Shown: in pieces, positions 7,821-63,069 of the stretch
Position numbering within the stretch: position 1 is the stretch's first letter
Layout: each line of letters starts with the position of its first letter
NCBI GenBank assembly: GCA_943788895.1
Contig: CALSRZ010000002.1
Location: 62,001-126,000, forward strand
Source: an uncultured Pseudomonadales bacterium
Lineage (GTDB): Bacteria; Pseudomonadota; Gammaproteobacteria; Pseudomonadales; Porticoccaceae
Length of the DNA stretch: 64,000 nt
Reading direction: 5' to 3'
Notes under the pieces: generated by a model
Told to the model about the DNA's origin: nothing
Database searches by the model: none
What the model saw: the letters and a program-made list of their open reading frames with translations, nothing else
Program-made: the position numbers and the translations under genes

Positions 7821-7928
7821 GCTCAGGGCTTTTGTTTCGCTCAGGGCTTTTGTTTCGCTCAGGGCTTTTGTTCCGCTCAAGGCTGTTATTCCGCTCAGGG
7901 CTTTTGTTCTGCTCAAGGCTGTTTCCCC
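7821..7928. repeat. 18-bp minisatellite, six tandem copies
   Basis: Six consecutive 18-base units based on GCTCAGGGCTTTTGTTTC, the first two identical and the rest drifting by 1-6 bases. A degenerate seventh begins at 7929. Because 18 is divisible by three, every frame reads as a six-residue repeat (AQGFCF, FRSGLL; KSPERN on the minus strand). It sits between a good ribosome-binding site (AAGGAG at 7758-7763, ATG 7773) and the first convincing codon of the membrane protein at 7952. Confidence 0.85.
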
Positions 7929-7951
7929 GCTCGCGGCACTGGGTGTCGCAA

Positions 7952-33477: not shown

Positions 33478-33632
33478 GCACGCCGTGCTCCTGACTAGTT
33501 AATAGAACAGAAAACGGCAGCAGTTTATGGAGAGGTGTCCGAGTGGCTGACAAAACACATTGTGTTTTGGTCGCACGGAGGGCGGTCTCGAAGAGACAAG
33601 AGATATGGCTCTGCCATAGCTCGCAACAACGA
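33478..33632 (+). repeat. 155-bp unit with truncated tRNA-Ser 5' end and multi-hairpin element
   Basis: Bases 33478-33550 are a near copy of 33633-33705, the leader plus first 22 bases of the real tRNA-Ser (GGAGAGGTGTCCGAGTGGCT...). In the left copy the tRNA breaks off in the D arm at 33550. A hairpin-rich insert follows: CAAAACACA/TGTGTTTTG (33551-33569), the linker GCACGGAGGGCG, GTCTC-GAA-GAGAC (33585-33597), TATGGC-TCT-GCCATA (33604-33618) and GAGCACG/CGTGCTC (33631-33645). The insert's architecture matches the element at 33814-33948. Confidence 0.8.
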
Positions 33633-33683: not shown

Positions 33684-33774
33684 GGAGAGGTGTCCGAGTG
33701 GCTGAAGGAGCACGCCTGGAAAGTGTGTAAGCGTTTATAGCGTTTCGAGGGTTCGAATCCCTCTCTCTCCGCCA
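33684..33774 (+). tRNA. tRNA-Ser (anticodon GGA)
   Basis: 91-base class II tRNA with a long variable arm. The acceptor stem GGAGAGG pairs with TCTCTCC (one G-U). D arm GTCCGAGTGGC, anticodon loop CTGGAAA with GGA (reads UCC/UCU), T arm GAGGGTTCGAATCCCTC, discriminator G, and CCA encoded in the DNA at 33772-33774. Confidence 0.96.
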
Positions 33775-33814: not shown

Positions 33815-33948
33815 GGCGGAGAAAGAAGGGTGAGATCCCTAGCTGGGTTCGACAAAATGCGACAGCATTTTGGACGCACGCAGGGCGGTCCGCAGGACTG
33901 CTTATGAGCCTTCAGGCTAATAAGCATCAATCCCTTCCATCACCACCA
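33814..33948 (+). repeat. tRNA-linked multi-hairpin element with TGG...CCA inverted ends
   Basis: The left end TGGCGGAGAAAGAAGGG resembles the reverse complement of the tRNA-Ser 3' end (TGGCGGAGAGAGAGGG). The right end AATCCCTTCC...CCACCA mirrors it. Inside, after GGGTTCGA, are hairpins CAAAATGC-GACA-GCATTTTG (33853-33872), linker GCACGCAGGGCG, GTCC-GCA-GGAC (33888-33898) and GCTTATGAGCCT/AGGCTAATAAGC (33900-33925). Same order of parts as the unit at 33551-33632 and the array beside tRNA-Arg. Confidence 0.75.
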
Positions 33949-42914: not shown

Positions 42915-43006
42915 AGCAATCGCAGAGTGGCAAAATTTTAGTGTCGCACTATTTTAGTGTCGCACCATTCTATTGTCGCACTCTGCGAAGATTAGCTTTT
43001 AAACTT

Positions 43007-61779: not shown

Positions 61780-62550
61780 ATGAAGCTTGGCCATTTTCTA
61801 ATTAGCATAATCACCGGCACTGTTGCTTCTACTGCTGTGTGTCTGGATTCAGTTGGCGCCAGTCAGCAACCTGAAAGTCCCACTTATACCTATGTTCTTG
61901 TTCACGGTGCCAGCGGTGGCGGTTGGGACTGGAAATATATGGGCCAGCTGCTTAGTGCTAAGGGACATACTGTTTACCGTGCCACGCTGACTGGGCTAGG
62001 TGAAAGAGCTCACCTGGCCAGCCCGGATATCAATTTAACCACCCATATTAATGATGTTGCCAATCTGATTTTATTTGAAGAGCTGGAGCAGGTTGTACTG
62101 GTTGGCCATAGTTATGGTGGCATGGTGATCACCGGGGTGATGGATCGGATGCCGGAAAATATAAAACAGGTATTTTTTCTCGATGCTTTTGTTCCTGCTG
62201 GTGGAATGGCGGCGGTTGACCTCTGGGGTGATTTAGCTGGGCATAAGGTTGTCGACGGGTTGGTGCATTTTTCGTGGTTGGATTCGGGCGGGCCGGTGCC
62301 TGGGGATGTGCCTCAGTCTTATAAGACGCTTACTGAGCCAGTGTCGTTTGAAAATCCGTTGGCGCTGGAATTGCCGGTGACTTATGTGCCTTTTGTTGGA
62401 GGGGTTGTTGAGGGGAAGGTGCGGGCTGGTTTTGATCCTTCTTGGAAGCGTGCTGTTGCTAGGGGTTGGGCTGTTACGACGCTTGAGAGTGATCATAATG
62501 CGCAGCGTTCGCATCCTACTGAGTTGGCAGAGTTGTTGATGGGGTTTTGA
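61780..62550 (+). CDS. exported alpha/beta hydrolase (esterase family)
   Basis: About 256 residues with a signal-like N-terminus (MKLGHFLISIITGTVASTAV). Oxyanion and nucleophile motifs are LVHGASGGGWDWKY and VVLVGHSYGGMVITGV, with the catalytic histidine in ESDHNAQRS; the pattern is that of small plant-type/EstC esterases. ATG 61780 follows AAAAGGG; an in-frame ATG at 61750 would add ten residues and spoil the signal. The last 300 bases are markedly G/T-rich in third positions compared with the start. Confidence 0.82.
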   Translation: MKLGHFLISIITGTVASTAVCLDSVGASQQPESPTYTYVLVHGASGGGWDWKYMGQLLSAKGHTVYRATLTGLGERAHLASPDINLTTHINDVANLILFEELEQVVLVGHSYGGMVITGVMDRMPENIKQVFFLDAFVPAGGMAAVDLWGDLAGHKVVDGLVHFSWLDSGGPVPGDVPQSYKTLTEPVSFENPLALELPVTYVPFVGGVVEGKVRAGFDPSWKRAVARGWAVTTLESDHNAQRSHPTELAELLMGF

Positions 62551-62992
62551 GTAGGGGTGCGTGATTGAGGCGAAGCCCAAATTCCGCTGGAGCGGAATTA
62601 GTCGAACAAAGGTTCTCACCGGCTGTCGTTTTTTTATATATGGTGCACTCGGAAGGATTAACTCAAAACACCTTGAAGGTGTTTTAACCCCTGCGGGGCA
62701 TCGCCGCGTTGCGGCTTGGTTCAAATTTTGCTGGAGCAAAATTAGTCGAAGAAGGTTCTTACCTCCGTCGTAGCCATATAAAAAAACCCCACCGCATGCG
62801 GTGAGGTTTTTGTATATGGTGCACTCGGAAGGATTAACTCAAAACACCTTGAAGGTGTTTTAACCCCTGCGGGGCATCGCCGCGTTGCGGCTCGGTTCAA
62901 ATTTTGCTGGAGCAAAATTAGTCGAAGAAGGTTCTTACCTCCGTCGTAGCCATATAAAAAAACCCCACCGCATGCGGTGAGGTTTTTGTATA
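62550..62992 (-). repeat. tandem 176-bp units derived from tRNA-Arg 3' end
   Basis: Two direct repeats, 62641-62816 and 62817-62992, differ at a single base (62717/62893). A third, diverged unit lies at about 62550-62640. Each begins with the last 18-20 bases of tRNA-Arg (TGGTGCACTCGGAAGGATT on the plus strand). It contains hairpins AAAACACC/GGTGTTTT, CCCC-TGC-GGGG, GCCGC/GCGGC and AATTTTGC-TGGA-GCAAAATT, then an inverted tRNA-like end (CCTCCGTCGTAGCCATATA) and a copy of the tRNA terminator. Confidence 0.9.
62957..62988 (-). terminator. terminator of tRNA-Arg (also copied at 62781-62812)
   Basis: CACCGCATGCGGTG palindrome extended by AAAACCC and GGTTTTT arms, with a run of Ts on the minus strand. 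It stands directly downstream of the tRNA-Arg 3' end, and the identical copy is part of the 176-bp repeat. Confidence 0.85.
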
Positions 62993-63069
62993 TGGTGCAC
63001 TCGGAAGGATTCGAACCTTCGACCGCCCGGTTCGTAGCCGGGTACTCTATCCAGCTGAGCTACGAGTGC
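62993..63069 (-). tRNA. tRNA-Arg (anticodon ACG)
   Basis: 77 bases on the minus strand. Acceptor GCACTCG/CGAGTGC, D arm GCTCAGCTGGATAGAGT, anticodon loop CTACGAA with ACG, T arm GAAGGTTCGAATCCTTC, discriminator A and DNA-encoded CCA. Sequence close to other gammaproteobacterial tRNA-Arg(ACG). Confidence 0.96.

Follow-up and report, generated by a model that had tools for sequence, protein, structure and literature searches.

At one edge of a 64,000-nt stretch of DNA from an uncultured Pseudomonadales bacterium (the window, in what follows), an intact tRNA-Arg(ACG) gene is followed by tandem repeats, and the question is what these repeats are and how they came to stand beside a tRNA gene. Positions 62631-62806 and 62807-62982 are direct 176-nt copies with 99% identity, and Tandem Repeats Finder reports a single array (62631-63011, period 176, 2.2 copies). 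An earlier note on this DNA had described 176-bp repeats differing by one base. The repeats stand, but in this frame they differ at two positions, 62636 and 62717, the former sitting at the outer edge of the frame; the count of one base holds if the unit is taken to start at TATATGG. Much else of that description was confirmed: the diverged third copy proved to be a truncated unit, the "last ~20 tRNA bases" are exactly the last 19 nt of tRNA-Arg, repeated without change in both full copies, and the inverted tRNA-like end, the multi-hairpin core (four hairpins, H2-H5) and a terminator copy, the palindrome TATAC...TATATGG, which occurs twice in the array, are all present (Table 1). At this locus Rfam returns only the tRNA at curated cut-offs and, apart from it, nothing near cut-off in a scan to E ≤ 10. 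Among the 20 of 137 plasmid records listed for a 536-nt query, the match is confined to the tRNA part (1-93). Frames running through the units span 31 to 168 aa and begin with TTG or GTG. An assembly artefact, a doubt raised in the earlier note, is out as a general cause, because repeats of this kind form arrays in the one-contig relatives G017 and G022, the former carrying four units at the same tRNA.

Table 1. Features of the two host loci in the window. R1 is the covariance model described in the text.
Feature	Positions	Strand	Evidence
Host gene tRNA-Arg(ACG), intact	62993-63069	-	ARAGORN; Rfam tRNA 67.5 bits
Terminator-like palindrome 1 (TATACAAAAACC...TATATGG), from tRNA 3′ end to inverted repeat	62950-62992	-	Repeat comparison
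Unit 1: inverted tRNA arm, T-loop motif, core, direct tRNA 3′ copy with CCA	62817-62949	-	R1 62826-62944, 79.3 bits (unit among the sequences used to build R1)
Core of unit 1 (hairpins H2-H5), between TTCGA (62922-62926) and AATCC	62836-62921	-	Alignment
Exact 19-nt tRNA-Arg 3′-end copy in unit 1	62817-62835	-	Sequence comparison
Terminator-like palindrome 2	62774-62816	-	Repeat comparison
Unit 2, anatomy as unit 1	62641-62773	-	R1 62650-62768, 75.9 bits
Core of unit 2	62660-62745	-	Sequence comparison
tRNA 3′ copy in unit 2	62641-62659	-	Sequence comparison
Third unit, truncated and diverged	62557-62630	-	R1 62557-62625, 19.3 bits, E 0.0011; direct repeat
tRNA-Ser(GGA), intact, second host in the window	33684-33774	+	ARAGORN
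3′ unit at tRNA-Ser(GGA)	33824-33938	+	R1 101.8 bits (unit was in the model)
5′ unit at tRNA-Ser(GGA)	33524-33620	+	R1 22.1 bits

Read in the sense of the tRNA, the order of parts is the tRNA with its CCA, the palindrome TATAC...TATATGG, an inverted copy of the tRNA arm into which the palindrome continues directly, TTCGA, the core, AATCC...CCA and the palindrome again. The inverted arm contains the motif TGAGAA (TAAGAA at the tRNA-Arg locus); the T-loop-like motif before the core reads GGTTCGA in most units and TTCTTCGA at the tRNA-Arg locus, and AATCC...CCA after the core is a direct copy of the tRNA 3′ end. The core stands in place of the T-loop interior of the copied tRNA 3′ end, TTCGA preceding it and AATCC...CCA following it. 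The earlier note had recognized the tRNA 3′ copies and the core, but had missed this placement as well as the 5′ copies interrupted in the D- or T-loop (see below). In an alignment of 11 units from 11 tRNA loci in five genomes, AGA, TT.GAC and AATC are invariant. The hairpins covary, with a double change in 25 of 41 pairs compared to 10-13 when the partners are slid, and none of 500 shuffles reached the real covariation score. Folding of the 520-nt region is 11.5 sd below 100 shuffles, largely owing to pairing between repeats; a single unit folds 2.7 sd below shuffles, one of 200 shuffles being equally good.

According to the earlier note, no named element has this structure. In fact the E. 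coli tyrT repeats, 178-bp repeats reportedly described in older work, and RtT RNA (RF00391) do have it, as revealed by R1, a covariance model for which 11 units from this family of genomes, and no RtT sequence, served as input. This genome supplied seven of them, chosen from places behind tRNA genes, and the relatives G017, G067, G075 and G090 supplied the other four. In the tyrT region of E. coli K-12, R1 finds all three repeats at the places given by RF00391 (26.4, 25.4 and 21.6 bits). It also matches at the RtT place in all 30 loci from other Gammaproteobacteria (16.6 to 56.3 bits), these being the best ones of RF00391. The E. coli repeats read GGATGAGAA...GGTTCGA, core, AATCCTTCCCCCACCACCA, and the copied tRNA 3′ end is exactly 19 nt long both there and in the tRNA-Arg array; the annotated end of E. 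coli RttR (171 nt) coincides exactly with the CCA of the 19-nt tRNA-Tyr copy. Tandem units 3′ of a tRNA, a 19-nt tRNA copy and a homologous structured core are found together at the tRNA-Arg locus. Since R1 recovers the E. coli repeats and all 30 RtT loci without RtT input, the tRNA-Arg repeats are, on sequence comparison, of the RtT (tyrT-repeat) kind, though they lie outside RF00391 as drawn by its curators. RF00391 (cut-off 45 bits) gives no match at the tRNA-Arg locus even at E ≤ 10, in this genome it gives one match, with E 0.36, and it has none at E ≤ 0.1 in 15 loci carrying units of this kind. Among 274 genomes of the class, it scores above cut-off in 18, and some match at E ≤ 1 is present in 88. 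So this is one family, and the curated model captures a minor share of it. Besides E. coli tyrT, RtT repeats have been recorded in many other E. coli tRNA operons and in Pasteurellaceae (PMC4986893).

The earlier note would have counted its reading as refuted had the genome carried no further copy away from this locus, which is not the case. R1, which leans towards tRNA ends because it includes the tRNA-like TTCGA and AATCC, has 20 matches in this genome (G000), and all 18 of those listed are found 3′ of a tRNA gene at a distance of no more than 700 bp, 17 of them on the same strand as the tRNA; the earlier question of whether copies gather at tRNA 3′ ends is thereby answered. Units adjoin 11 of the 31 tRNA genes of the genome: Arg-ACG, Arg-TCG, Lys, Leu-TAA, Leu-CAA, Ser-TGA, Ser-GCT, Ser-GGA, Ala-GGC (a weak match of 19.7 bits), Phe (on the opposite strand) and Cys (on the 5′ side). 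When the DNA of the core alone was used as a query, 23 of 143 genomes were matched, at tRNA-Arg and, with weaker matches, downstream of other tRNAs. With R1, scoring at most 100 candidates per genome, 26 of 36 relatives are positive at E ≤ 0.01. Across the phylum, with at most 12 candidates scored per genome, 46 of 299 genomes are positive at E ≤ 0.001, and 30 of these 46 lie outside the class, in two families. The motifs TGAGAA, TTCGAC and AATCC are conserved across the phylum. For 24 of 29 loci from the phylum search (L196-L224), a same-strand tRNA lies no more than 250 nt 5′ of the match, with hosts that are mostly Ser, plus Arg, Tyr, Asn and Glu; in one of the remaining loci all tRNAs are situated further downstream, and four contain no tRNA.

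Overall, 143 distinct matches were kept out of 155, the other 12 coming from overlapping loci (38 regions are match clusters of six genomes picked from the list of 36 relatives). Same-strand tRNAs are found within 700 nt on the 5′ side of 104 of the 143, two of which were counted from an interrupted tRNA-Val copy. The other 39 comprise 18 matches on the 5′ side of a tRNA, two on the opposite strand, one at 948 nt, three from E. coli whose tRNA is cut by the edge of the stretch but is seen in the E. coli K-12 tyrT region, four next to a tRNA 3′ end whose 5′ half is missing or which is itself cut (by eye), and 11 with no tRNA within the fetched stretch, three of which are dispersed copies in G039. 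Of 60 distinct first units, 56 begin 38-67 nt past the tRNA. Hosts in and out of the class include Arg, Ser, Leu, Lys, Pro, Asp, Val, Tyr, Gln, Asn and Cys. Empty sites, about which the earlier note had also asked, exist as well: R1 matches at 15 of 33 tRNA-Arg(ACG) loci and not at the other 18, figures that give no frequency, as six of the loci were fetched for their core match. Several of the empty loci have the tRNA and a palindromic terminator without a unit, and in one (L015, by eye) the inverted arm and the T-loop motif alone are left.

A few further features deserve mention. In this genome a tandem array of 121 bp in 5.6 copies lies 3′ of tRNA-Met (L071 1579-2251); it contains pieces of the T and acceptor arms of tRNA-Met (by eye), has no R1 match and is perhaps a second kind of tRNA-derived repeat. 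A common extra hairpin stretch, GGCAGATTTTTGCTCCTGCAAAATCTGC...TGCCATCC.TGGCA, can be recognized by eye at Leu-TAA of this genome (L085 970-1122) and Leu-CAG of G022 (L050 1471-1590). Sub-threshold matches of Rfam sX4 (RF02223) cover tRNA-Ser and its terminator in L066, L053 and L090, and the window contains short tandem repeats of 18 and 16 bp at 7821-7932 and 42935-42982, respectively. The three dispersed G039 copies (L154, L156 and L157) have like cores with other inverted arms and no tRNA in the stretch. G041 has 49 Y1_Tnp matches, many of them fragmentary, and an Arg and Ser tRNA cluster with one unit (L120).

On the 5′ side of tRNA genes, the join between tRNA and core is easier to see. 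Eighteen interrupted tRNA copies were found in eight loci, and in all eight an intact tRNA stands beside them. In G018, three tandem 60-nt copies of tRNA-Val, with zero or one mismatch, run to the T-loop, where the core begins, and are followed by the intact tRNA-Val; tRNA-Cys of this genome has one interrupted copy of 56 nt. At tRNA-Ser(GGA) in four genomes, including this one, and at tRNA-Ser(GCT) in two, the copy comprises the first 20-22 nt of the tRNA and breaks off in the D-loop, at or within two bases of GGCTGA. At the tRNA-Ser(GGA) locus of the window, the copy is identical to the first 22 nt of the tRNA (33529-33550), and the core breaks the D-loop directly after GGCTGA. Such copies are a warning for tRNA finders, since ARAGORN calls four tRNA-Val in the G018 array (L146 1453-2054), three of which are the copies broken by the core. 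Among the titles listed in literature searches, mostly of papers outside subscription, none concerned loop-broken tRNA copies or host-tailored arms.

Do the arms follow the tRNA beside which a unit stands? For 60 distinct first units, we compared both arms with 12 nt of the T-stem and acceptor 3′ strand of the host, using tRNAs of other amino acids as controls. The inverted arm has 7.78 of 12 matches with the host and 6.17 with the others, the direct arm 8.82 and 6.32, respectively, and in neither case did any of 500 permutations reach as high. The host outscores every other tRNA in 18 of the 60 inverted arms and in 29 of the 60 direct arms. By contrast, the T-stem 5′ half beside the core hardly follows the host (2.41 of 5 matches vs 2.06 with others), and in many units the outer arms are decayed. 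The resemblance of the arms to the host tRNA is thus partial. For the tRNA-Arg of the window, the direct arm matches at 12 of 12 positions and the inverted arm at six, the control being 6.1; with its inverted arm at control level, this locus makes the explanation preferred below slightly weaker and its RNA-based competitor slightly stronger.

Within a genome, the cores beside different tRNA genes resemble one another, with a listed range of 68-95%; examples are 79% over 160 nt and 83% over 109 nt in this genome, and 93% over 55 nt in G017. The tree of cores from 42 units, resting on 82 columns and with eight of its 39 branches starred, requires 20 changes of the host label compared to 32.1 for shuffled labels; the genome label requires 30. 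For the most part, a core keeps to its tRNA locus. On starred branches, however, at least four host changes for Ser-TGA and at least three for Arg-TCG are unavoidable, and Ser-TGA units are grouped with Arg-TCG units there. Movement of the core is likely, as judged by comparing sequences, with no insertion observed directly between near-identical strains. On balance, we lean slightly towards a scenario in which the core of these tRNA-linked, RtT-kind units would have been copied into tRNA loops, followed by tandem multiplication. The repeat is best read as non-autonomous.

In this scenario, a copy of the core would enter a tRNA gene at the T-loop (after TTCGA) or the D-loop (after GGCTGA), with duplication of the flanking part of the tRNA, and only products keeping one intact tRNA would survive, presumably because the tRNA is needed. 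The inverted arm may have been written by fold-back copying at the terminator hairpin, and would consequently resemble whichever tRNA hosts the unit. Copy number could then be altered by unequal exchange or slippage. Read-through RNA, if any, might be cut back to the copied CCA in the manner of a tRNA end, a suggestion that comes from where E. coli RttR is annotated to stop, and may be a by-product; we prefer to see here a DNA-level repeat with an occasional RNA by-product. More tentatively, and with somewhat less than even confidence, RtT could represent one branch of phylum-wide non-autonomous elements that target tRNA-gene loops (T or D), have arms tailored to each tRNA by fold-back copying and persist because an intact tRNA is always left next to them. 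Loop-broken copies and host-following arms give these repeats a testable origin, insertion into tRNA loops, and suggest that Rfam families now separate may belong together.

The main competitor, which we consider rather unlikely, is a functional small RNA of RtT type cut from tRNA read-through, with arms that mimic the acceptor and T-arm for release by tRNA-processing enzymes. It would account for the hairpin covariation and for the end of RttR at the copied CCA, the phylum-wide conservation of TGAGAA, TTCGAC and AATCC is equally expected of a functional RNA, and E. coli provides a precedent with a reported stringent-response effect (PMC4986893). The pairing itself is less RNA-like. G-U is preferred over A-C in H1 (44:10 and 16:2), which is the sole RNA-like excess; in H2-H5 it is barely above A-C (41:30 in A2, 39:18 in A3), a near-parity that is conservative given that model-fitted alignments lean to G-U, with H5 partly misaligned. 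The outer helix has no G-U preference (47:45 and 23:21), and tRNA stems from the same loci differ from the units with a ratio of 48:0. Moreover, each unit at the tRNA-Arg locus sits behind a terminator-like palindrome (the terminator scan flags only the + strand reading as terminator-like), and the presence of units differs between congeners. In a biofilm screen of E. coli MG1655, overexpression of RttR left biofilm at 97 ± 9%, with no other effect marked (PMC4606813).

Three further explanations concern the DNA itself. That palindromes grew locally at each tRNA end by template switching, without a shared moving core, would fit the terminator palindrome running on into the inverted tRNA copy and arms that partly follow the host. 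Yet different tRNA genes carry like cores, one model finds cores across the phylum and the core tree contains host switches, which makes this pure form improbable; like cores at different tRNA genes were the ground for rejecting local template switching alone. Template switching stands as a possible source of the arms, and of the two suggestions in the earlier note, a tRNA-targeting MITE-like element or a template-switching product, the tRNA-linked repeat is likewise retained, whereas the fixed ends of a MITE are not. A minimal integrative element, with a tyrosine integrase acting at a tRNA attB and the 19-nt direct copies as att sites, could explain the direct copies of tRNA 3′ ends, the tandem arrays and the T-loop position, but inverted arms inside the unit also partly follow the host, and we regard it as very improbable. 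Mobilisation of a REP-like element by a resident RAYT/Y1 transposase is scarcely credible and is disfavoured for the resident enzyme in particular, even though the hairpins show little strand preference, a REP has been listed within E. coli rttR (PMC12306157) and rtT-like elements are said to overlap BIMEs (PMC2965389). Y1_Tnp matches are present in 11 of 26 R1-positive and four of 10 R1-negative genomes; there are none in this genome (93% complete) or in the one-contig G022, despite 27 R1 matches in the latter, and a resident RAYT was rejected on these grounds; a past enzyme may have acted.

How do these units compare with known systems? MITEs are short and non-coding and have inverted ends. 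The units described here share these properties, but their ends are not fixed and vary with the host tRNA, so that the fixed terminal inverted repeats of a transposase family are not seen. REP/BIME sequences with RAYT are likewise multi-copy, non-coding palindromes, and rtT-like elements have been reported as belonging to BIMEs (PMC2965389); the units here differ in being tied to tRNA loops, in having partly host-specific arms and in requiring no resident Y1 transposase. Some similarity to AaHKsRNA22 (RF02902) of Aggregatibacter is indicated by scores of 34.9 and 34.2 bits on the Leu-TAA and Ser-TGA units of this genome, below the cut-off of 39.8. The closest parallel is E. coli tyrT/RttR, with its tandem ~178-bp units 3′ of a tRNA, an inverted tRNA arm with TGAGAA, a four-hairpin core between GGTTCGA and AATCC, and the 19-nt tRNA 3′ copy at the end. 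Unlike in E. coli tyrT, the hosts here are tRNA-Arg and many other tRNAs, a terminator-like palindrome precedes each unit, the core differs in sequence, and the tRNA-Arg locus has no RtT match.
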